A stretch of DNA of 36,622 nt. It comes from a virus. Of the stretch, positions 24,374 to 35,946 are shown in pieces (within the stretch, counting starts at the first letter, position 1; each line of letters opens with the position of its first letter). Under the pieces are notes generated by a model. That model had not been told where the DNA came from. It saw nothing but the letters and a program-made list of their open reading frames with translations, and searched no databases. The stretch covers positions 1-36,622 of the IMG/VR virus record IMGVR_UViG_3300029309_000119; one strand, 5' to 3'. A program made the translations under genes and the position numbers.

Positions 24374-24787
24374 TCATACTCCCCAGGTGCCGTCTTCTCT
24401 AACTCTGGCAATCTTTGTTTTGCCGTAGTAAGGACACGCCAGACCTTCTTTAATAAGGATGTCAGAGACATTGATACCATCCACAAAAAAATGCCCTAAA
24501 ACTCTGCCATACTTGTCGCGTTCCAAACTTTGTAATCTTACGTCACCTACTAATAATTCTTTTAATCTTGCTTTTGCTTTTAATCCTAGCTCTTTTTCTG
24601 CTGCTCGTTCTGGATACCTCTTAAGATTGATACGCGATTCTGCTGTGTCAATTTCTGCAATTCTTACTGCAACATTGTGCAACTTCATAGAAAAGCCTAG
24701 GTCTACCCAGGATAGCCGCACTGTATCTCCATCTGTGATGTATTTAACTTCACACATATATGTGAACAGTGTAGGCTGATTAGACAT
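24374..24787 (-). CDS. Staphylococcal-nuclease-like (thermonuclease) protein
   Basis: 137 residues. The SNase residues all align by spacing: Asp19/Asp21 in YITDGDTVRL, Arg42, Asp47, Thr48 and Glu50 (VRIAEIDTAES), and Arg95 (ERDKYGR). No signal peptide is seen, so it probably acts in the cytoplasm, or in the periplasm after holin triggering. SNases cut single- and double-stranded DNA and RNA with calcium. It lies in the lysis cassette between a small membrane protein and the lysozyme. It could help clear host DNA at lysis or act in packaging; that is inference. The ATG shares a base with the previous stop. Confidence 0.85.
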   Translation of the reverse strand: MSNQPTLFTYMCEVKYITDGDTVRLSWVDLGFSMKLHNVAVRIAEIDTAESRINLKRYPERAAEKELGLKAKARLKELLVGDVRLQSLERDKYGRVLGHFFVDGINVSDILIKEGLACPYYGKTKIARVREDGTWGV

Positions 24788-24975
24788 CACTTGATGACTT
24801 TATCATCTCCAGGCTTCTGTTTCGCAAACCCAAAATTTAGCGCAGCTAAATCTATCAGCTTGTACAGCTTCCCGATCCAAGCATCGTCCTTTGGCGTTGG
24901 GGTGCTAGCAGCTACAATGCTTGCTATACATACCACAGCGGTGATGCCTTGTACTAAGTTCATTATGATTTCCAT
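24787..24975 (-). CDS. Small membrane protein, candidate holin
   Basis: 62 residues with a strong AGGAGG five bases before the ATG. One hydrophobic segment (about 4-25: IMNLVQGITAVVCIASIVAAS) is followed by TPTPKDDAWIGKLYKLID and a short amphipathic end. It resembles small proteins in other marine phage lysis regions. One membrane helix, position between spanin-like and lysozyme genes and size suit a holin or antiholin; no family is certain. Stop and next start overlap by one base. Confidence 0.55.
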   Translation of the reverse strand: MEIIMNLVQGITAVVCIASIVAASTPTPKDDAWIGKLYKLIDLAALNFGFAKQKPGDDKVIK

Positions 24976-25013: not shown

Positions 25014-25394
25014 TCAGTCTTTTTTCTGATTTTCGTCTTCTTTGTCGTCATCGTCTAGTGATCTGTAATATTTTATGATAGCTAGGACATCCTTGATATA
25101 TCGCTTTTGTTCTGCCGTATTCATGCTCAGGTTCTCATAGCCTTGCGTAGTTAAGGCGTAATAGGCTTGAGCTGGTGCAGAGCCTTCCTCCAGTGCCGCT
25201 AAATATTCGTCCATGATTTCAGGTGTTAGGACTCGCCACTGGATGTCTACCAATTGTACCTCTAGGGGGAGAGGAGGATGATAGAGAGGAGCAGGCTCTG
25301 ACACCGTGACTACCTCTATTGGTTTAGTCGTAGGCATCAAAGAACATCCTGTGGATAAGATGAGTATTGATGCTAGGGCTGCTAGCCTAGTCAT
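25014..25394 (-). CDS. Lipoprotein, candidate outer-membrane spanin (Rz1-like)
   Basis: 126 residues. The N-terminus is a short hydrophobic signal ending in the lipobox LSTGC (Cys17), so the mature protein would be lipid-anchored in the outer membrane. It continues with a Pro-rich stretch (PAPLYHPPLPLEVQ), a helical middle, and a very acidic C-terminus (DDDDKEDE). Gene order just after a TM/coiled-coil protein and before lysozyme matches Rz/Rz1 pairs. It is longer than typical Rz1 proteins (about 60 residues). It would bridge to the inner-membrane partner and disrupt the outer membrane. It overlaps that gene by eight bases. Confidence 0.7.
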   Translation of the reverse strand: MTRLAALASILILSTGCSLMPTTKPIEVVTVSEPAPLYHPPLPLEVQLVDIQWRVLTPEIMDEYLAALEEGSAPAQAYYALTTQGYENLSMNTAEQKRYIKDVLAIIKYYRSLDDDDKEDENQKKD

Positions 25395-25773
25395 ATTGAC
25401 TCGGATCTGTGAGCGCGATCAGATCTTCCTTGACCTTCATAGTGCCTTTGTTGACTATGTTCTCAATAAGTCCTGGCTTACTAAGCGCTAGGTTATCCAT
25501 GTTGTGCCTCGCAAACGTATTCTTGAGCTTGGCTACTTCTCTTTGTGATGCTTGGTTTTGCTTTTGGAGATCTGCTATTTGGGTTTCTCTTTGCTGCTGT
25601 GTTTCCAAATAGTTTTTGATTGATTCGTTTTGCTTCTGTATCTCGCCTTGTAATACGACTGCATTAGCTTTGAGTTGGGTAATCTCTTTAGATTGAAACT
25701 GAATATAGAACCACATTCCCCCTAGCAGGGTGATGGATGCGGCTGCAAATATTAAATTAAATTTTAAACCCAT
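25387..25773 (-). CDS. Inner-membrane spanin-like protein (Rz-like)
   Basis: 128 residues. One N-terminal membrane helix (about 6-26: LIFAAASITLLGGMWFYIQF), then a long coiled-coil-rich region (about 30-90, with Gln, Glu and Lys). The C-terminal segment RHNMDNLALSKPGLIENIVN looks like spanin-type ends I recall in other phages. The order, inner-membrane protein with coiled coil followed by a lipoprotein, matches the two-component spanin system that fuses inner and outer membranes at lysis. It directly follows the cyclase gene by 14 nt, linking the lysis cassette to the curli/cyclase cluster. Confidence 0.75.
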   Translation of the reverse strand: MGLKFNLIFAAASITLLGGMWFYIQFQSKEITQLKANAVVLQGEIQKQNESIKNYLETQQQRETQIADLQKQNQASQREVAKLKNTFARHNMDNLALSKPGLIENIVNKGTMKVKEDLIALTDPSQYD

Positions 25774-25787
25774 TTTGGTATTGTAGG

Positions 25788-27617
25788 TTATTTTTTAAGT
25801 TTTAGCACCTTGCCATCTATGAGTGGTGCGTAGATTGTTATTTCGTCTTCTTTGCCTTTCACCTTAATCTTATCTACATACACACACGCTATCTCATTTT
25901 GTATGAGATCATAGGTATCCTGGGGCAGCAGTATTGGGGTGTCCTGCTTTCTTGTTTCTCCCTCTAACCTTGCGCCTAGATTTACTGCATCACCAATGAC
26001 AGAGTAATTCATTCTCATGGATGAACCTGTATTCCCAACAATACTTGGGCCTGTAGAAATGCCAGAACCAAACATAACAGGAGGCAGATCTAAACCTTGG
26101 TTTTTAAGATCTTGATTGAGCTTTTGACACAGTAACTCAAGTTCTATAGCAGTCTTAACAGTGATGATCGCATGGTCTTCTCTAGGTATAGGCGCACCTG
26201 CCCATGCCATGATGCAATCGCCCATGTACTTATCTAGCGTTAATCCATTGCTGATTACCACTTTAGTCATTTCATCTAAGAAATGATTGATTAGACTTAC
26301 AAGACCTTCAGGATCACCCTTCTTCATATACATCTCTGAGATAGGGGTGAATCCCACGATGTCTGAAAACAGATAGGACATGGTTTTATTTTGACCACCA
26401 AGCACCATTAGATCTGGGTTTTTAACAATAATATCTACATACTCAGGACTTATGTATGTGCCAAACTGATCTTTGATTTGTTGTCTTAACTTGTACTGTT
26501 CCCGAAACCTTATGTAGAAGCTGACAGATGCTGTAATAAATTGTGATATTAGAGTCCATGTGACATCTATCAATGCCCCAGACTTTATTAGAAACACACC
26601 ACTAGCACCAACACCTAATATAGATATGAGTGATAATCCTAAGCCAAGATATAAGCCTAGGAAATTTACCATTATAAATACTGCGAATGTACCAAGGGCA
26701 AAGATAAGCAATTCATACAACAAAGCATTGGAAGGTATGCTAGGCATAGGTTGGCTTGAAGCATGTATAATTGTTTCTGCTACTGCTGCTTGAATTTCTG
26801 CTGGAGTCAAAAGACCTATAGGTGTTGCTGTCATTGGAAGGATGCCTTTAGCCTTTAGGTTTACAACAACCATCTTGCCTTCTACATCCATCTCTGTGAG
26901 TGATGTTCCACGTGGAACAGTCCAATTGATCCAAACTCTTCCATACTCATCTGTAGGTATTGGGTTGAGTTGCTTCACTCTAATCTCTTCTATGCCAAAT
27001 TCATTAGTCTTAATAACATATGTATCTGTGCCTGTGACTGATTTAAGCATCTGTGTGGCAAAAGCTGCTATCCATCCATCTGGACTACGCATCAGAAGAG
27101 GCATTCTTCTTAACAGGTTATCCACATCTACTGGTGCTGATACGATTCCTTGCAAAGCATTCTCTCTAAGCATGGGAATGTTCTGCTTTACACCTTTGGC
27201 TTCTATGCCTCCAACCTCGTCACCTAGGATTACTGTGCCTTCTGTAGTGGGTATATCCTTCCAATTCTCTGTCTCAAACATAGCCAAAACACTTGGATAG
27301 TATGATAGGGCTTCTGCAAAGACTTCATCACCACCAAGCCTATCTTTCTCAGGGAAAGAAACCACCCAAGATACTGAGGTTGCACCTTTATTAAGTAGCT
27401 CTACATGAAGGATGCCTAGTTCTTCTCTGCTCCAAGGCCATTGCCCTTGTTTCTCAAGATCTTCTTCTGTGATATTCAATAAGACTATGTTGCCTGTCTG
27501 TTCCTTTGGTTCAATGAAGGCATCAAATGTTCTTAGCTTTATGATCTCAACAATGCTGACTTGATATATAAGTGGTGTTGCAAGAGCTGCCATGAGAAGT
27601 ACAACAAACTTCTTCAT
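25788..27617 (-). CDS. CHASE2 class III nucleotide cyclase (probable adenylate cyclase), membrane-bound
   Basis: 609 residues, with an ATG overlapping the FecR stop (ATGA). The order is an N-terminal membrane helix (4-20), a periplasmic CHASE2-type sensor (about 30-285), three membrane helices (about 298-316, 318-345, 350-368), then a cytoplasmic class III cyclase. Catalytic residues are metal Asp419 (FSDIVGFT) and Asp467, with substrate Lys463 (LDKYMGD). Ser539 occupies the position that is usually Asp or Thr. Transition-state residues Asn546 and Arg550 (DAVNLGAR) follow. Lys463 favours ATP, hence cAMP. FecR-CHASE2-cyclase pairs are known in bacteria. In a phage late operon such a gene is surprising; whether it signals to the host, or senses the envelope, is inference. 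Confidence 0.93.
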   Translation of the reverse strand: MKKFVVLLMAALATPLIYQVSIVEIIKLRTFDAFIEPKEQTGNIVLLNITEEDLEKQGQWPWSREELGILHVELLNKGATSVSWVVSFPEKDRLGGDEVFAEALSYYPSVLAMFETENWKDIPTTEGTVILGDEVGGIEAKGVKQNIPMLRENALQGIVSAPVDVDNLLRRMPLLMRSPDGWIAAFATQMLKSVTGTDTYVIKTNEFGIEEIRVKQLNPIPTDEYGRVWINWTVPRGTSLTEMDVEGKMVVVNLKAKGILPMTATPIGLLTPAEIQAAVAETIIHASSQPMPSIPSNALLYELLIFALGTFAVFIMVNFLGLYLGLGLSLISILGVGASGVFLIKSGALIDVTWTLISQFITASVSFYIRFREQYKLRQQIKDQFGTYISPEYVDIIVKNPDLMVLGGQNKTMSYLFSDIVGFTPISEMYMKKGDPEGLVSLINHFLDEMTKVVISNGLTLDKYMGDCIMAWAGAPIPREDHAIITVKTAIELELLCQKLNQDLKNQGLDLPPVMFGSGISTGPSIVGNTGSSMRMNYSVIGDAVNLGARLEGETRKQDTPILLPQDTYDLIQNEIACVYVDKIKVKGKEDEITIYAPLIDGKVLKLKK

Positions 27618-28738
27618 TGTCCTTGCCTAATTCTTATTGTGGAACTAGATCCACCATTGACTGTTACAGTTCTGCTAATGCCATTCTGTATGAATATGAC
27701 TGTGTATGATCCACCAGCATCTAGATCTAACCTAATGTTATCTTCTACTTGCCTTCTAAGAGAAACTCTTTGCTGATCTACAATGGTGATAATGCCTGTC
27801 TCAGAGTCTTGCCCGAGCTGTGTACCCTTGATGGAAACTGATGTTGCTACTTGGTCAAGCTGATCCTCTTCTTCTATGTCACCTAGCTTGTCTATTATCT
27901 GAAGAAGATCCTCCAAGAAGTTTACATCTAGGTAGTTTATATCCAGCTCTGTGAAGTCTAGGTCTGCTTCATTATCTAAGAAGTCTTCTGCTAGTAGGTC
28001 TATGTCTAGGTCTTCAAAGGCCAGGTAATCATCGGCTGATTGTATGGCATTCTCTGTCTGTTGAAATTCAGCGTTAGCCTTAGGAGGGCTTACAATAAGC
28101 ATGTTATCAATAAGATCTAGTGTTAGATCCAAGATAACAGGATCTGTAGGGCTAGTTTCAAACACCTCTACAGTTGTAGCTTCAAATGGTTTATTTAATA
28201 GAACCTCGCCCATTGCAGTGGAGACTAAGATCTCGCCACTAGACAAGCCAGTTATAGGATCGGGAAGCAACATAATTAAGCTAGATCCTAGCTCTGTCAC
28301 TGTGATTGCTAGGGAAGTACCACGAATTGCTATGTCAGCAGATGGTGTTTTGAGCTTTATGTTTCTTTTGTCTATGCGTCCGAGCTTGCCTGTGACGAAT
28401 CGCGCAGTGCCTTGGGCAAAGTTTATGGCTAACTTAGAATTGCTTGGATCATTAGAGTAGACATACTCATCTACTATTAGTGAAGAATGCTCTGTGAGAC
28501 GTACTATAGTCTCATCTAAAAAGGTTATAGCTAACCTACCCTTGCTAGTTCTTACATCATCTAGGGGCTGTATGGGGACTTCTAGAAGAGCATCTATAGG
28601 CTCTTCCCTATATATACGAGCTACTCCACGCAGCTCAGATACTGCTCCAATATCAACAACTTGTGCTTCCGCCTGCATCGTTTTGGATGATGCAAACAGT
28701 GCCACTATTGCCATTAGTAATAATCTTGAGCCAATCAC
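27614..28738 (-). CDS. FecR-domain exported protein
   Basis: 374 residues from a GTG at 28738. The first 25 residues look like a signal peptide (SRLLLMAIVALFASSKTMQAEA). A FecR domain spans about 60-150 (DDVRTSKGRLAITFLDETIV, and IKLKTPSADIAIRGTSLAI). A very acidic middle (about 238-296), then a Gly/Thr/Arg-rich beta-like end. FecR domains are periplasmic and usually relay envelope signals. This gene sits between the curlin and cyclase genes, so it could be the periplasmic partner of the CHASE2 sensor. It overlaps the curlin gene by 86 nt, and no ribosome site is visible, so its start is less sure than its identity. Confidence 0.85.
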   Translation of the reverse strand: MIGSRLLLMAIVALFASSKTMQAEAQVVDIGAVSELRGVARIYREEPIDALLEVPIQPLDDVRTSKGRLAITFLDETIVRLTEHSSLIVDEYVYSNDPSNSKLAINFAQGTARFVTGKLGRIDKRNIKLKTPSADIAIRGTSLAITVTELGSSLIMLLPDPITGLSSGEILVSTAMGEVLLNKPFEATTVEVFETSPTDPVILDLTLDLIDNMLIVSPPKANAEFQQTENAIQSADDYLAFEDLDIDLLAEDFLDNEADLDFTELDINYLDVNFLEDLLQIIDKLGDIEEEDQLDQVATSVSIKGTQLGQDSETGIITIVDQQRVSLRRQVEDNIRLDLDAGGSYTVIFIQNGISRTVTVNGGSSSTIRIRQGQ

Positions 28739-29369
28739 TGACCAACGTACTCTCTTGTTTAATAGTAAACGCTCTACTGTTACCTGTTTGATCTAAGTAG
28801 AAATATCCACCAGCTTTTCCAGATCCTTCAAAATCAACAGTGTTTGAGTCACCATCTATATCAACATAGTTAGTGCCTGTCTCATAATTGATGTCAAAAT
28901 CTAGGTCATTGCTATCGCCATTGATTACCCAATCTAGGTCTAAGGTATCTGCTAATGCAGACGTACCAACGTTCAAGTCAAATGTATTACTGCTGCCTGT
29001 AACATCAATATTGTAATTACCTGTGTCAGCACCATAGGTATTAGTGGGATCTACTTGTATTTTAAATACGTTGGAGTCTCCATCAAATTCTGAGAACCAT
29101 GTGATGCTACTTCCTGTAATATCACCTAGGAATTGGTTACTGTTACCGATTTGATTGATGTCCATTGTGAGTGATGCTGTATCAAGATCAAGAGCAGTCA
29201 TAGAGCCTGCAACTGCATTGAGTCCACCAATGATGTTGCTGTTACCCAACTGTTCTACATCTAAGTTTAAAGTAGCGCCAACTTGATCTATATAGATCTC
29301 GTTGTCAGCACTATAGACTGAAAAGGGATAACACCCACATGCAAGGATTAATAATAAACGTCTCATCAT
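28653..29369 (-). CDS. Secreted curlin-repeat protein (CsgA/CsgB-like)
   Basis: 238 residues from the ATG at 29369, six bases after GGAG. The signal peptide is about 1-20 (RRLLLILACGCYPFSVYSA). The rest holds eight or nine repeats around a turn such as Q-x-G-N/D-S-N, centred near residues 31, 42, 75, 97, 125, 151, 173, 196 and 220, with spacing of mostly 22-28. Examples are DINQIGNSNQF, FDGDSNVFKI and LDQTGNSRAFTI. Curlins have the same Q-x-G-x-x-N/Q style of repeat and stack into amyloid. Two Cys near the end (226 and 238) are unlike CsgA. It lies next to csgG and csgF homologues, suggesting it is their cargo. The cargo role is inference; the repeats are plain. Confidence 0.8.
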   Translation of the reverse strand: MMRRLLLILACGCYPFSVYSADNEIYIDQVGATLNLDVEQLGNSNIIGGLNAVAGSMTALDLDTASLTMDINQIGNSNQFLGDITGSSITWFSEFDGDSNVFKIQVDPTNTYGADTGNYNIDVTGSSNTFDLNVGTSALADTLDLDWVINGDSNDLDFDINYETGTNYVDIDGDSNTVDFEGSGKAGGYFYLDQTGNSRAFTIKQESTLVSDWLKIITNGNSGTVCIIQNDAGGSTSC

Positions 29370-30208
29370 TCTATACTCCAAAAACCCTTGTTGGAGCCTT
29401 CCTGTATGAGCTGCAATACCGCAGTTTCAATGGCAGCTTGTAAAGCTAGGTTGACTGACTCATTCCTTACCAATCCACCTTCAATCTCCACAAGTTCTGT
29501 GCCTTGCGTTATGAAGCGAAATACATCTTGTGAAATAGACGCTGATAGTATCGTCTTAGTCACAAGGACTTCCAACAATACGCTACCTGTAGATACAGAT
29601 ATAATGCGAAGAGAAATTATTACTTCATCTTCCCTATATTCTCTGGAGTTACCCAACCCCAGGAACCTCGCACCTGCGCCTCCTGACGAAACGTTACTTT
29701 CATATCCTACCACAGATCCACGTATTAACAAACCTGCGAACTTCAGAGGCATCAATTCTTGTTCATCTTCAAACTGTTGACGAGTATTTCTAATGAGCTG
29801 TCTTTCTTTTGTAAGGTTATCTAGACCTATCCTTTCAACGACATTGAAGAAGCCACCATTGTCTTCACCTGCTCTATGTAAAGCTCGCACAAGGTAGAGA
29901 TAAGGTGCTTGTGTTATTGCTGTAGAGAAGCTGGCATATTGGCCATTAGAAAGTCTTGCTCCAGTCTGATCTGTAAAAGCATCTGCATAGACTGCAACAG
30001 TAGGTTTAGCCTTGGGTTTGCCTATTGCAGAAAGTTCTTTGATAACTATGGGAGCTATCTCTGAGGCTTCTATGTGCTTAATAGGTGGGAGGTTGTTGTC
30101 TATAGGATCAAACATCAAGGCACAACCATTTAGGAGCATAGCCCCTACAAAGGTTATGGTGATCTTAAAAGGTGAACGAACCCAGGGGTAGAGAGATAAC
30201 TGTAACAT
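29366..30208 (-). CDS. csgG: CsgG-like curli secretion channel, outer-membrane lipoprotein
   Basis: 280 residues from the ATG at 30208; a GTG three codons earlier (30217) is the alternative, and neither has a good ribosome-binding site. A hydrophobic signal ends in the lipobox LLNGC. The body follows E. coli CsgG closely: ASFSTAITQAPYLYLVRAL, GLDNLTKERQLIR, GSVVGYESNVSSGGAGARFLG, RIISVSTGSVL, TKTILSASISQDVFRFI and AAIETAVLQLI, ending GFWSIE. Family members form nine-fold pores that export curli subunits. Its 5' end overlaps the csgF-like gene by about 44 nt, and its stop overlaps the curlin start. In E. coli csgF and csgG are also adjacent. Confidence 0.93.
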   Translation of the reverse strand: MLQLSLYPWVRSPFKITITFVGAMLLNGCALMFDPIDNNLPPIKHIEASEIAPIVIKELSAIGKPKAKPTVAVYADAFTDQTGARLSNGQYASFSTAITQAPYLYLVRALHRAGEDNGGFFNVVERIGLDNLTKERQLIRNTRQQFEDEQELMPLKFAGLLIRGSVVGYESNVSSGGAGARFLGLGNSREYREDEVIISLRIISVSTGSVLLEVLVTKTILSASISQDVFRFITQGTELVEIEGGLVRNESVNLALQAAIETAVLQLIQEGSNKGFWSIE

Positions 30209-30689
30209 TGCCTTCACTATCGGTTATGGTGAGGGTTATCATATCTCCCTCAACGATGTAACTAATCGTATTACCAAGTAGTTCAAGAATGCCCTGCGTC
30301 TGCGGGTTCTCTCCAAATAACTGATCTACCAACTGTCTTGATAGCTGAGCATAGATACGTGATTCCAAATTACGTAAGAATCTAGCAAGCGTAGTGTTCT
30401 CTTCTTCTCGCTTAAGCTGTTCTTTATATGCTTTGATCTCTTCTTTGATCGCTTTCTTGCGATTAAATTCTTGATTTTCTATTGTGAGGTAGTGGCTGGA
30501 TTGATTGATACCACTAAAAGATGGGGACTTGAATTTGTGTACCATCTGATCTGCCATAGCATTCTGGACAAACATTCCAGCAAACAATATGACTCCGATA
30601 GCCGATAATATTTTTATAATAAGAGTTTTCTCTTTCTCTTTTTTAACTTGGTCTAGCTGTTTCTTACTAGGTCTGCCTCTCTTTGCCAT
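30165..30689 (-). CDS. csgF: CsgF-like curli assembly factor with unusual N-terminal extension
   Basis: 174 residues. The segment MVHKFKSPSFSGINQSSHYL (about 49-68) matches the start of mature CsgF, which plugs into the CsgG pore. A helical stretch (RFLRNLESRIYAQLSRQLVD) and a beta-rich end (TISYIVEGDMITLTITDSEG, then VTVISLPLGSFTF) also follow CsgF. A membrane-like segment (about 22-42) ends in AMA (44-46), a likely signal-peptidase site. Unusually the N-terminus is basic and carries KRGRPSKK, an AT-hook-like motif, so the n-region is some 20 residues longer than in a normal signal peptide. The stop overlaps the csgG-like gene. E. coli CsgF is about 138 residues. Confidence 0.85.
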   Translation of the reverse strand: MAKRGRPSKKQLDQVKKEKEKTLIIKILSAIGVILFAGMFVQNAMADQMVHKFKSPSFSGINQSSHYLTIENQEFNRKKAIKEEIKAYKEQLKREEENTTLARFLRNLESRIYAQLSRQLVDQLFGENPQTQGILELLGNTISYIVEGDMITLTITDSEGNVTVISLPLGSFTF

Positions 30690-31039
30690 TAGTCTTTTCT
30701 CTGGTCATCCCTGTCTGCTTTAGCCAATCTATCTGACTGCATCAGTTGGGGTACACCTAGTATAGTCTTTAAAAGGGTATCTTGTCTAATTATCTCATTG
30801 TCTACGGATCTAACACGATCTATCAATGCCACCAAAATACCATGCTGAGCGTCTAATTTTGCGCCTAGCCTTTGCTCAATCTCACTAATTTGTGCAGATA
30901 CCTTATCATCTAAGACGTCTACTTTAGCTTCCATGCCATCTATAATTTTATTAATTAACTTCCATATGAAAAGACCTAAGCCAAGGGCTGCTGCTATCGG
31001 GAATCCAACCTCATTGATTAGTTGTACTACGCTGTCCAT
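30689..31039 (-). CDS. Small membrane protein with coiled coil, holin-like candidate
   Basis: 116 residues from the ATG at 31039, one base after the previous stop; a longer frame to 31096 overlaps that gene and lacks a ribosome site. One membrane helix (about 8-30: NEVGFPIAAALGLGLFIWKL), then a long coiled-coil region (DGMEAKVDVLDDKVSAQISE onward). It resembles small membrane proteins common near marine phage lysis genes. Its stop overlaps the csgF-like start by one base. It could be a holin or a membrane anchor for the neighbouring export genes. No specific family is recognised. Confidence 0.6.
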   Translation of the reverse strand: MDSVVQLINEVGFPIAAALGLGLFIWKLINKIIDGMEAKVDVLDDKVSAQISEIEQRLGAKLDAQHGILVALIDRVRSVDNEIIRQDTLLKTILGVPQLMQSDRLAKADRDDQRKD

Positions 31040-31040
31040 T

Positions 31041-31592
31041 TCATGTGTTGTCTGTTGTCCATTGCTCCTTTGTAAGTACACTAGACTCAAAGCCATTATC
31101 GTCAGTGCCTAATTCCGTATGATTAGCAGTTGTTGTGCGTTTTTTCACGTACTCATAACCTGCAGCTTCTTTGTCAATCTTGACTGCGGTGATTTTTTGC
31201 AAAGGTGTTGTGGTAAATAAATTTTCGTTGACACCTATAGAGAACTCTTTGAAATAGCCCTTATTTCGTTCATCCTCAGGTGTCCATACAAACTCTACTG
31301 TAAACTCTGAAAGGTTAGATCTTAGGTTGTTGTTTTTTGTATTAGACAGCTCCCAGGCTTCACCTTCTTTACCCCTCAATTCTGGCAAGGCCACTACAAA
31401 AACGCATACTAGCTTGTTGTCTGATGTTCTTATTGCAGCATGTACACGCCATCCATTAGCTTTCACCAACCCATGAAACTGTGCTAGCGATCTACCCATT
31501 GCAGATGCCACTACAGAAAATTGACTTTCATGCAGCTGACCAAAAGTCAGGTTTGTGGTAGTCCCGTGTACCCGTAAGAGCTTATCGCTCAT
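31041..31592 (-). CDS. Unknown phage protein in the tail region
   Basis: 183 residues, with its start overlapping the previous stop as ATGA. No signal peptide or membrane helix. The sequence alternates helical (SVVASAMGRSLAQFHGLV) and strand-rich parts (VHAAIRTSDNKLVCVFVVAL, then EFTVEFVWTPEDE). No motif is recognised. Its place between tail-tip and curli-type genes suggests a virion or late-assembly role, but nothing in the sequence proves it. Confidence 0.65.
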   Translation of the reverse strand: MSDKLLRVHGTTTNLTFGQLHESQFSVVASAMGRSLAQFHGLVKANGWRVHAAIRTSDNKLVCVFVVALPELRGKEGEAWELSNTKNNNLRSNLSEFTVEFVWTPEDERNKGYFKEFSIGVNENLFTTTPLQKITAVKIDKEAAGYEYVKKRTTTANHTELGTDDNGFESSVLTKEQWTTDNT

Positions 31593-31953: not shown

Positions 31954-34900
31954 TTAACTCCTCGCAATACTGTGTGTGCTTGTAGAATGGCTATAGTTAC
32001 CAGTTTGCGACCCACCTGTTGTTCTTCCTAATATGATTTGCGAGTCTGTTCTATCCACCAGCTGTATTTTTGGTGTGCTAGATACTGCTGTTACATTTGA
32101 TACAAACAGCTCACACCAAAGCCAAAGTGTTCCTGTAGTTGTTTGTGATGCCTGTGGTATGTTTAATTCAAGCTCATTAACTAGAACACTAAACCCACCG
32201 CTAAACGTAGTTGCTGTCCCAAATTGACTAAGCGCTAGAACTTCACCAATGTCACCGTTTGTTACTTGGCTGTATGACGATGAGCTACTACTAATCCCTG
32301 CTGATACATAAATTAATAAATTACCGCCTGTGCTTCCTTTGCCAGATGATGTAAATGTCAAATTGCCTGTCACCCCAAATTGGAAATTTTTAAGGGTGAT
32401 CTTGTTGTATCCTCCTGATTGTACCGATTCTATAAAAAATGCAGATGGTGCTACCTTATGACCAGAGTCATATGATGAACTTCCGTAGGTAGGCAACCCA
32501 GTAGTTCCAATGAGATATGATTTTCCTGTAGCATCTGTGCCATTTGGTAGCCCCCTAGCAGAGTTGTAAGCTGCAGAACTAGAGTTGATGCTTAGGGTGC
32601 GGCTGTTCCCAGTAAGGCTATTGTCTACAAAGGTTCCAGAGCCTGTACCAATACCAGATATTTCACCGTCATTATTAATTGTAATTCCGCTATTGAGCAG
32701 ACCAGACTCTGCTAGATTTTCAAATGAGCTTCCATTCCAACGTGGCAATATGCCTACAGTGCTGCCAAACGTACTGGCTATATCTATTCCAAACCCACCC
32801 CTAGCAGGAGGCACGGTGGTTCTTATATTCAGTGTTCCACTTGTAAAATCTGGTATGCCAGTAGCCGATGATACGTCCTGCCCAAAACCACCTACACTCT
32901 TGCTGACTGTTCTTTTAACATCTCCAGCTGTTGTAAGTCCTGCTGTCAGCCTAGATCTAATACTGCCGCCATCAGTAAGGGTGTTCATGGTAGGGTTGCC
33001 CGTACCATTGTTGCTGTAGGTCAAGCTGCCATCTGTATTCATCTGAATACGAGTGTTTATAAGTCCGTTTGCAGCCGCAAGGTTTGACCCAATTTGGGTG
33101 CTGCCTTTTTTAATTTGTAAGCTAGTGCCGCTATACGCTAAAGAGAGATCGCTGTTTCTAACGTCCTCATCGCTGAGAGATGTACCACCACTATCAACCA
33201 AATTAGTGCCAAGAGTAGCTCCGACTGTAGCTCCGCTAGCTGGTAGCGTAGAAAAGACTTTGCCAGTTCCTGCTAAATTGCCACTAGATATTTTGTCATT
33301 AGAGAATACAGTGGTGCCAGTGCCTGTGTTGGTGAGCCTACCGTTGGTATCTACACCTATGCTTCCGTTCTTTATTTCATTAGCAGTGAGATTTGTAGAG
33401 CCATCTGTATCAAATAGATTAGTTCCGAACCTAGCCCCGACTGTAGCTCCATCATCATAGTCAAGACCTAAGTTACTCTTAGTAACATCTACTGACGTGT
33501 TAGATGAGCCAATACCAGATATAGATATACGCCCTACGTTTGTGGTCGTGTCTAACGCTATACCAATGACATCATTAAAAACACGCGATCCAGAACCAGT
33601 ACCTATACCACCTATAACCCCTGTGGTGGTGTTTATTGAAATACCGTCATTTTTAATGCTTACGCTTGCATCATCAGGCGCTGTGCCTGCCCTTAGACGA
33701 ACTAACTTAGTGAGTTCTGCCGATGTAAAAGGCTCTAGCAATGTGAAGCTAGATGCGTTGTTGTTTTTTAAACCTATCTTTCCATCTGAACTACTAACAC
33801 TATCAAACTCTGTTTTATTAGCTCCGTCAAAATAATCAAGAGAGAGATTAGATTTAGTAACATCTATAGTGTTATTACTCCCTCCGATACCTCCTATGCT
33901 TATACGCCCTATGTTGGTGATTGTATCTAAATCTATATCTATGATGTCGTTGAAGATCCTAGAGTTGTTACCTGTTCCTATGCCCCCTATTTTCCCAGTT
34001 GTGCTGTCTATAGATATAGCATCATTTTGTAGGTCTGTATTAGATTGTGCTGATCCCGCTACCGTGTGTTGCACGGTGGCGTATGAGCTATAGATTCCAT
34101 GTATGTTAAGGTGCCTTACCCGCACATCATATTGCTGCCCTGTCTGCACCCCTGGTATGAAACCAAATGTAAGGCCTTTGGGTATCATAGGCTGTATTGT
34201 ATATTCACTATCAGAGGTGAGCTTGTAAGATAGTTCTGTGCCTGTCACTAGCTCAGATGTAGAGTTTGTCCAGTTAGCTCTAATTATTTTTTGATTTACT
34301 ACATAGACGTTAAAGGTGAGCGTGGTTGCACTTAAACTGGATGGCGCTCCTGGTGTTCTGGAATCATCTGATATATCAGATCCTTCATCTGGCACAGTGC
34401 CATATTCGTTGAATACATGATTGAACACAGAGCTGTTGTTTTCTTTAAGTTCTAGCTTTGTTGCAGCAGCTGGTGTCTCATCACCAACCATCTCCATGTT
34501 TGTAGAAATAACTTCAAAAACTTTATTTGTATATCCTAGTCGTTCATTAGTTACATACACCCAATCTCCAGGCTGTAACTTTAAAAACTCCATAGTGGTC
34601 ACTAATGACAGAGCAACACTTTGTCTACCATGACGCAACGCAATCTTTGCTAATCTGTCAGCCATACTTGATGTAGTCGTGTAGGGCAGTTGAATTTCTT
34701 GTTGCTTTACATAGTTTGCAGAGCTTTCACCACTGGGTGTATCTGCTGATAAAAACGTAGAATCCTGAAACACAGCACCGTCAGTACCTGTAAAGTTTTG
34801 ACTTGCATCTACATAAATCGGTTTGACAGTGTTATATAGCTCTCCGTTATTAGGTCGGGTGCTAACTTGTGCAGGTGCTAGTAGCTTATCGTCTGTGATA

Positions 34901-35946
34901 GTAAGAGATGGTGTTTGTGCAGCCCCAACAAACAAACTAAATTTTCCATTCACATATGTCATTTTTCCAGCACAAGATGACAACAGCCCTTCTAATACAC
35001 CGTCAGGAGATGCAGACATGTCTGTAAATCCGTTAGCGGTATACCGATCTTCGGTGCTTGAGTTATCAGCTAGCGTGACATCTTGATCGCAGGTGTTAGC
35101 TGCTGAGGCAAAGCCACCTGCTGATGTACTATCATTAAGTTCTGATGCTTCTGCCTTTAATCCGTAGGTTGTATTGCTCAGATAGTCTCTGATACATAGA
35201 GCAGGGTTAGAGGTAAATGCAGTAGAGTTTGTCCTTGGATCAAAACACTTCTTGCCTTTGACTTTAAATGTAAGGGTAGGCGGCTGAGGTAGCTTCTCTG
35301 TGTCGTATACCATCTGTACATACACGTATGCACAGTCCTTATATATATGTGTAGTTGGTATTGATCCACTTAGCTGATTACGCAGAAACCCATCTGCTGT
35401 AGTTTGTGATCCGTTGTTAAATGAGAATCTCATTAAGGTACCACTGCTATCTAGCTTGTTATCGTTATCTGAATTTTTAAGCGATGATAAATTGACGTTA
35501 AATACCTGCTTACCGCCAATAGTAGATGTGGTTGTATTGTTCCCGATAACCACGTTTTTACCATTTATTCTTAAGGCTTCTAAGCTCTGTATTTCGTGAC
35601 CAGCAACAATCGCAACCATGTGTAAAAGATGATTGTCTGTGCCAGACGTTTGCATATGCACAATCGTGCCACCAACAATACATTCGCCATACACAATCTG
35701 TCTTGCAGCTGTAGCGTTTCTAGTGGTGACTTTTGTGCCAAAGTTTTTATTGTTTGCTTCTATGCCTTTGGATGTCAGCATAGAAAGACCTGAAGATATA
35801 AGTGTAGTCGCAAATGTTACTGCCGCCATAGCTGCAGCACCTGTTAGACCAAATGCACTAAACGCAGTTGCTCCTACTCCTCCTGTTGAGGCAACTACAA
35901 ATACAACGAGTGCAGCTACAACAGCAGCTTTAATGGCTTTAGCCAC
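31954..35946 (-). CDS. Tail-tip / host-specificity protein, lambda J-like
   Basis: 1330 residues. The N-terminus (about 1-60) is rich in Ala, Val and Gly and hydrophobic, like the tail-embedded start of many J-type proteins. A tail protein body follows: RQIVYGECIVGGTIVHM, CIRDYLSNTTYGL, and LKLQPGDWVYVTNERLGY (about residue 455). A fibronectin-III-like segment is at about 535-635 (PGAPSSLSATTLTFNVYVVN onward). The C-terminal half (about 640-1330) is repetitive and beta-rich; it probably carries the receptor-binding part. It follows a DUF6950-like gene with an 8-nt overlap, a usual tail-tip order. The homology is to the family, not to a particular phage. Confidence 0.88.
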   Translation of the reverse strand: MAKAIKAAVVAALVVFVVASTGGVGATAFSAFGLTGAAAMAAVTFATTLISSGLSMLTSKGIEANNKNFGTKVTTRNATAARQIVYGECIVGGTIVHMQTSGTDNHLLHMVAIVAGHEIQSLEALRINGKNVVIGNNTTTSTIGGKQVFNVNLSSLKNSDNDNKLDSSGTLMRFSFNNGSQTTADGFLRNQLSGSIPTTHIYKDCAYVYVQMVYDTEKLPQPPTLTFKVKGKKCFDPRTNSTAFTSNPALCIRDYLSNTTYGLKAEASELNDSTSAGGFASAANTCDQDVTLADNSSTEDRYTANGFTDMSASPDGVLEGLLSSCAGKMTYVNGKFSLFVGAAQTPSLTITDDKLLAPAQVSTRPNNGELYNTVKPIYVDASQNFTGTDGAVFQDSTFLSADTPSGESSANYVKQQEIQLPYTTTSSMADRLAKIALRHGRQSVALSLVTTMEFLKLQPGDWVYVTNERLGYTNKVFEVISTNMEMVGDETPAAATKLELKENNSSVFNHVFNEYGTVPDEGSDISDDSRTPGAPSSLSATTLTFNVYVVNQKIIRANWTNSTSELVTGTELSYKLTSDSEYTIQPMIPKGLTFGFIPGVQTGQQYDVRVRHLNIHGIYSSYATVQHTVAGSAQSNTDLQNDAISIDSTTGKIGGIGTGNNSRIFNDIIDIDLDTITNIGRISIGGIGGSNNTIDVTKSNLSLDYFDGANKTEFDSVSSSDGKIGLKNNNASSFTLLEPFTSAELTKLVRLRAGTAPDDASVSIKNDGISINTTTGVIGGIGTGSGSRVFNDVIGIALDTTTNVGRISISGIGSSNTSVDVTKSNLGLDYDDGATVGARFGTNLFDTDGSTNLTANEIKNGSIGVDTNGRLTNTGTGTTVFSNDKISSGNLAGTGKVFSTLPASGATVGATLGTNLVDSGGTSLSDEDVRNSDLSLAYSGTSLQIKKGSTQIGSNLAAANGLINTRIQMNTDGSLTYSNNGTGNPTMNTLTDGGSIRSRLTAGLTTAGDVKRTVSKSVGGFGQDVSSATGIPDFTSGTLNIRTTVPPARGGFGIDIASTFGSTVGILPRWNGSSFENLAESGLLNSGITINNDGEISGIGTGSGTFVDNSLTGNSRTLSINSSSAAYNSARGLPNGTDATGKSYLIGTTGLPTYGSSSYDSGHKVAPSAFFIESVQSGGYNKITLKNFQFGVTGNLTFTSSGKGSTGGNLLIYVSAGISSSSSSYSQVTNGDIGEVLALSQFGTATTFSGGFSVLVNELELNIPQASQTTTGTLWLWCELFVSNVTAVSSTPKIQLVDRTDSQIILGRTTGGSQTGNYSHSTSTHSIARS
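33430..34040 (-). repeat. Duplicated module in the tail-tip protein
   Basis: Two copies of a roughly 75-residue segment are encoded at about 33820-34040 and 33430-33660. Each contains I-D/N-TTG-x-IGGIGTG, SRIFNDI or SRVFNDV, ITNIGRISIGG or TTNVGRISISG, and DVTKSNLSLDY or DVTKSNLGLDY. Related shorter stretches (GIGTGSG) recur further downstream, indicating repeated duplication in the receptor-facing half. Confidence 0.75.

Follow-up and report, generated by a model that had tools for sequence, protein, structure and literature searches.

In bacteria that make curli, a pore, a docking protein and the cargo jointly carry out export and surface assembly. In viruses, a csgFG cluster was reported earlier (PMC7029224), and a module that also comprises FecR, a 'histidine kinase' and an adenylate cyclase has been described in pelagiphage podo- and myoviruses, with superinfection defence, aggregation or uptake proposed as its role (PMC9599517). 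For Methylophilales phage Melnitz the proposed role is a lysis pore, and neither fibres nor clumping were seen in the infected cells (PMC9004378). When we searched annotated phages with CsgG or with the cyclase, full-length matches came only from Pelagibacter phage HTVC008M (two records) and four Melnitz strains, and these phages carry the order csgF-csgG-curlin-FecR-(curlin)-cyclase.

The stretch of DNA analysed here (the window) is the complete 36,622-base IMG/VR virus contig IMGVR_UViG_3300029309_000119, which ends on both sides inside tail genes, indicating a nearly complete but open genome. It encodes HK97-type capsid genes, TerL, a portal and a J-type tail tip. The block of interest lies on the minus strand, where the J protein (31954-35946; PHROG 5616, 1.7e-80; PHROG 31, central tail fiber J, 3.6e-40) is followed by a protein without assigned function, the first gene of the module, and then CsgF, CsgG, a curlin-like protein, FecR and a CHASE2 cyclase. 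Beyond the cyclase, and outside the module, the same strand carries an Rz-like inner-membrane spanin (25387-25773; PHROG 739, 1.3e-13), an Rz1-like outer-membrane spanin lipoprotein (25014-25394; PHROG 812, 6.8e-15), a small transmembrane (TM) protein (24787-24975; PHROG 9685, function not annotated), a nuclease and a phage lysozyme (23905-24486; PF00959, 3.8e-42). The small TM protein, which is also kept in relatives that lack the csg genes, is a candidate holin.

A sequence-only reading of this DNA had described five tightly packed minus-strand genes lying between tail-tip and lysis genes. All five open reading frames are indeed present and abut or overlap one another, with J upstream and the spanins and lysozyme downstream. 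Among relatives the median gaps inside the five-gene block are -50, -32, -128 and -1 bases, values taken from the longest open reading frames that may therefore overstate the overlaps, the starts of the module genes being uncertain. The same reading had raised the possibility of a chimeric join with bacterial DNA. This is excluded by a contig from a separate metagenome (L002), in which J, the flanking gene and the block through the cyclase occur in identical order and at about 90% identity.

The calls of CsgF, CsgG, FecR, CHASE2 and cyclase made from the letters alone are borne out by profile matches, all of which lie above the curated Pfam cut-offs. The CsgF-like protein (30165-30689, minus strand; PF10614, 5.4e-19) has a signal peptide behind a basic N-terminal extension, and its N-terminal segment VHKFKSPSFSG aligns, weakly (E 0.09), with E. 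coli CsgF MTFQFRNPNFGG in solved CsgG-CsgF complexes. The segment is conserved among relatives and is a candidate CsgG-binding element, its E. coli counterpart sitting in the pore. The CsgG-like outer-membrane pore lipoprotein (29366-30217, minus strand; PF03783, 1.8e-45) has the lipobox LNGC and probably starts at an internal GTG; its profile aligns with the solved E. coli CsgG (2e-63) along most of that protein. As the earlier reading had stated, we found no CsgE in the record, which may be incomplete; the modules of Alphaproteobacteria and of other viruses likewise have none (PMC9599517).

The third of these genes encodes a curlin-related repeat protein and candidate cargo (28653-29381, minus strand), with a signal peptide ending near ...VYSA and a conserved C-terminal pair of cysteines. 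Its identification as a curlin-type cargo holds through its relatives, 7 of 19 of which match Curlin_rpt (PF07012, best 8.6e-6) when aligned, and through a viral curlin profile that retrieved 16 repeat proteins of CsgA/B type from bacterial csgFG loci, 11 of the 36 being positive, whereas about 750 kb of control DNA yielded none. It is weaker for the protein of the window taken by itself, which gave no Pfam match above the cut-off. An AlphaFold2 model is all-beta (pLDDT 79) and has no significant fold match in the PDB; many parallel beta-helix proteins appear among the insignificant matches, and the E. coli CsgA fibril is matched only at E 2.1. In many repeats Asp or Ser replaces the Gln/Asn of curlin. 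Given these substitutions, the missing Pfam match and the lack of a significant fold, amyloid formation by this protein is uncertain. Of the features of a type VIII system, the window has a CsgG-family lipoprotein, a CsgF with a CsgG-binding N-terminus and, via the profile of its relatives, a predicted secreted curlin-repeat subunit, but no CsgE gate.

The sequence-only reading overlooked the sixth gene of the block, which is invariant and precedes csgF (30689-31096, minus strand; 'Hol' family; PHROG 18771). Its product is a short inner-membrane protein of 135 aa, predicted to form one TM helix followed by a coiled coil, with no Pfam family above the cut-off. Relatives lie upstream of csgF in 68 of the 68 viral loci with enough flank (loci drawn largely from the 80 best among at least 586), and among 50,697 phage records they occur only in six that bear csg genes; we conclude that this gene is a member of the module. 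A TM/coiled-coil protein of 95-135 aa, labelled 'hypothetical' in the isolates, precedes csgF throughout. We equate it with the published 'HK' (PMC9599517) by position, not by sequence, and no kinase family or domain was found in it in the window phage, HTVC008M or Melnitz. The doubt thus falls on the published 'histidine kinase' feature, not on the membership of the window in the viral T8SS module. In other phage groups, large TM proteins adjoining the module (L009, L020 and L055) have the look of GTA-type holins, yet gave no Pfam match.

How constant the module is can be judged from 89 viral loci collected by CsgG, mostly the best 80 of at least 586 CsgG-related stretches in IMG/VR. Counting only loci with available flank, in a sample that leans toward close relatives, CsgF was present in 78/78, curlin in 83/83, FecR in 77/77 and the cyclase in 45/49, and the gene order was the same throughout. 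In the CsgG tree the viral sequences stand apart from bacterial CsgG (SH-aLRT 99), with the CsgG of the window inside the viral clade. The T4-like phages share a single deep branch, and the J-linked sequences are scattered over the remainder and enclose those of other phage types, a topology that fits transfer of the module between phage types; it is plausible that the J lineage serves as its reservoir.

The claim that the genes form a new combined system does not stand, as HTVC008M and Melnitz share the order and the module has been published for podo- and myoviruses (PMC9599517). The window has the viral T8SS order, csgF-csgG-curlin-FecR(-curlin)-cyclase, on a single strand, and HTVC023P-type podoviruses, pelagimyophages, HTVC008M and Melnitz carry the same families in the same order, with the small gene or genes first. 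The block is thus a viral type VIII (curli) secretion module, already published in kind. It shares homologues of CsgG, CsgF and curlin repeats with bacterial curli, from which it differs in that no CsgE was found and in that its CsgG belongs to a separate viral clade. Unlike the viral T8SS of PMC9599517, it occurs in a phage with an HK97-type capsid and a J-type tail, between J and the spanins, and has a single small upstream gene and a single curlin gene. What is new is its fixed site in a lineage with a lambda-like, J-type tail, an alternative gene set at that site, a first gene without a kinase domain, and the recognition of FecR and the CHASE2 cyclase as a bacterial pair of their own.

The periplasmic FecR-domain protein (27614-28738, minus strand; PF04773, 3.4e-10) gave, for residues 30-210, a model that matches the cell-surface-signalling domain of PupR (6ovk; E 6e-5, probability 1.00); no confident model was obtained for the C-terminal region. 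The CHASE2-class III adenylate cyclase (25788-27617, minus strand; PF05226, 1.7e-29, and Guanylate_cyc PF00211, 1.9e-17) is laid out as an N-terminal TM segment, a periplasmic CHASE2 domain, further TM helices and a cytoplasmic cyclase domain. In the alignment it keeps all six catalytic residues known for class III adenylate cyclases (D419 and D467 for metal, K463 and D543 for ATP selection, N546 and R550 for the transition state), and the PDB entries that match it best, 6fht and 3r5g (CyaB), are both adenylate cyclases. We rejected a Pycsar defence role, the match to PycC being of the generic cyclase-domain kind (8e-16), with no effector among the proteins scanned. Several J-lineage phages without the cyclase keep FecR adjoining Rz, so the cyclase is accessory.

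In 96 Alphaproteobacterial-class genomes FecR lies within 2.5 kb of 30 of the 102 CHASE2 genes, against about 0.5 expected, and in 18 of the 30 pairs it precedes the cyclase gene in the same orientation. No FecR, CHASE2 cyclase or gene 1 occurred within about 8 kb of any of the 36 bacterial csgFG loci, and the CsgG genes of the 96 genomes had no FecR/CHASE2 neighbour save in viral contigs. A scan of genome contigs returned only seven matches, all in the viral gene order and in MAG bins. A bacterial source of the entire five-gene operon was thus not found in the 36 chromosomal loci and 96 genomes. FecR and the CHASE2 cyclase form a separate gene pair in bacteria, to judge from these neighbourhoods, and since that pair never lies near csgFG in the loci examined, the viral operon unites two bacterial modules. 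In S. meliloti, the CHASE2 cyclases CyaD1, CyaD2 and CyaK respond via outer-membrane NsrA, and removal of CHASE2 leads to constitutive cAMP (PMC7529298, PMC13001267). These cyclases and the bacterial pairs resemble the phage FecR-cyclase in domain make-up and adjacency, and in the passages drawn on here FecR is not reported as part of the NsrA pathway; the phage pair differs from the bacterial FecR and CHASE2 pairs in being joined to csgF-csgG-curlin. Taken together, the bacterial pairs and the NsrA case suggest that the phage genes may form an envelope-to-cAMP relay.

Using the J protein rather than CsgG as anchor, and counting each metagenomic contig once with ten duplicates merged, we found the csg module at one and the same site, between the tail tip and the Rz/Rz1-lysozyme genes, in 42 of 46 contigs. 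The remaining four have an unrelated set at that site, comprising two predicted secreted proteins (one of 371 aa and rich in Asn/Thr, the other of 744 aa), a TM/coiled-coil protein and a lipoprotein of 67 aa, where secretion was judged by eye from signal-like N-termini and two of the four contigs end inside the set. No contig carries both sets, and none of those with 3.5 kb of flank carries neither; most of the J seeds were taken from phages with csg, which biases the frequencies and, to a lesser degree, this exclusivity. Rz, Rz1, the small TM protein and the lysozyme are intact wherever covered, with or without csg. The closest comparison is between contigs L268 (alternative set) and L279 (csg), whose J N-termini are 87% identical and whose neighbours on both sides are the same. 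With the 744-aa protein as anchor, 69 loci had the alternative set and none had csg, with lysozyme in 46 and Rz in 40 of the 69. That another predicted secreted set can take the place of the module while the lysis cassette stays as it is points to an exchanged function that concerns the cell surface or an exported product, and not lysis.

We consider it reasonably likely that the curlin-like beta-solenoid is exported by CsgG and CsgF and reaches the infected cell's surface, while FecR and, where present, the cyclase serve as an envelope sensor. The module would be made late in infection alongside the tail and lysis genes; CsgG lipoproteins would form an outer-membrane pore with CsgF docked inside, through which the curlin-related beta-solenoid would pass out and coat or decorate the cell. 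Periplasmic FecR and the inner-membrane CHASE2 cyclase, the latter an accessory, may monitor the envelope, most likely the pore or the cargo, and convert its state into cAMP, and the product of gene 1 would be an obligate inner-membrane partner. The net effect would most likely be an altered surface of the infected cell, leading to exclusion of rival phages or sticking of cells, rather than an effect on lysis. Late infection may leave little time for a useful coat, which counts against this reading, and the missing CsgE gate and the lack of fibres and clumping with Melnitz (PMC9004378) have also been counted against it.

Control of lysis timing, one of the roles considered in the sequence-only reading, seems to us improbable. 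As proposed for Melnitz, the CsgG/CsgF pore, working as a gated pore or in the manner of a pinholin, would depolarise the cell and trigger lysis (PMC9004378). The module does adjoin the spanins and lysozyme in the J lineage, and gene 1 resembles small one-TM membrane proteins and matches a holin PHROG, if weakly (E 0.0016). However, relatives that lack both the module and gene 1, with J up to 87% identical, have a complete lysis cassette of spanins, small TM protein and lysozyme, and a pore would leave cargo, FecR and cyclase unexplained. CsgG is moreover an outer-membrane protein, from which depolarisation of the inner membrane is not expected. We give similarly little credence to a fibre that is associated with the virion or released, acting after lysis, for instance by keeping progeny or host cells attached to one another (sibling capture), as proposed for pelagimyophages; the late-operon position next to J and the lysis genes would suit it, yet lysis frees the protein anyway, so that a dedicated outer-membrane pore is not needed, and Melnitz shows no clumping (PMC9004378). 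Very doubtful is a CsgG pore for uptake that admits nutrients, cofactors or iron chelates, with FecR sensing iron (PMC7029224, PMC9599517). Such a pore would agree with the absence of a CsgE gate from the record, but CsgF and the invariant curlin gene would have no part in it, FecR has CHASE2 cyclases as its bacterial partners, and the window proteins scanned included neither a FecA-like receptor nor a sigma factor.

Returning to surface export, we tentatively suggest, as a possibility somewhat short of an even chance, that the position separating the tail tip from the spanins is reserved for surface-export modules that can replace one another, where both sets would do the same surface job and the curli set would add an outer-membrane-to-cAMP relay.

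The module is common, with CsgG relatives in at least 586 IMG/VR stretches, nearly fixed in the J lineage, and replaceable by a different set of predicted secreted proteins. That some 5 kb of a genome of less than 40 kb is devoted to curlin-like export implies that changing the host surface must pay. The six genes are a natural set that ties an outer-membrane pore to a predicted cAMP enzyme, and the natural relatives with and without csg make superinfection exclusion, sibling capture and lysis timing, all published proposals, separable from one another.

An alternative four-gene set, found in 69 viral loci, occupies the csg site between the tail-tip J and Rz/Rz1-lysozyme genes in J-lineage relative L268 (14500-18386) and comparison locus L281 (9073-12967). 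Its members are an Asn/Thr-rich predicted secreted protein matching PHROG 20531, a 744-aa predicted secreted protein with no family assigned and no match in annotated phages, a TM/coiled-coil protein and a small lipoprotein.

In the window, a minus-strand 183-aa protein (31041-31592), found only there and in metagenomic contig L002 among the loci scanned, lies between J and the csg module. CsgF (30165-30689, minus strand) carries a Lys/Arg-rich extension, AKRGRPSKKQ, ahead of its signal peptide, and many of its relatives have other basic extensions. A 62-aa TM protein (24787-24975, minus strand; TPTPKDD motif), a candidate holin matching PHROG 9685 (function unknown), is conserved between Rz1 and lysozyme.

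One record, OR851715.1 ('Salmonella phage S.Kent 1-2-1'), is a 1.5-kb 'phage' entry without annotation. Its CsgG groups with bacterial chromosomal CsgG in our tree, and it is probably bacterial contamination. The viral csg gene order also occurs in MAG-binned contigs L085, L086, L088, L089 and L091, which are probably viral contigs placed in bacterial bins (Maricaulis, Neomarinimicrobiota, Rhodobacteraceae, Flavobacteriaceae and Pelagibacter).

The cyclases of L088 (6672-8708) and Methylophilales phage Melnitz (L004; 12685-14736) both bear a C-terminal extension and have GDxVS in place of GDAVN, lacking the transition-state Asn; these enzymes may be impaired.
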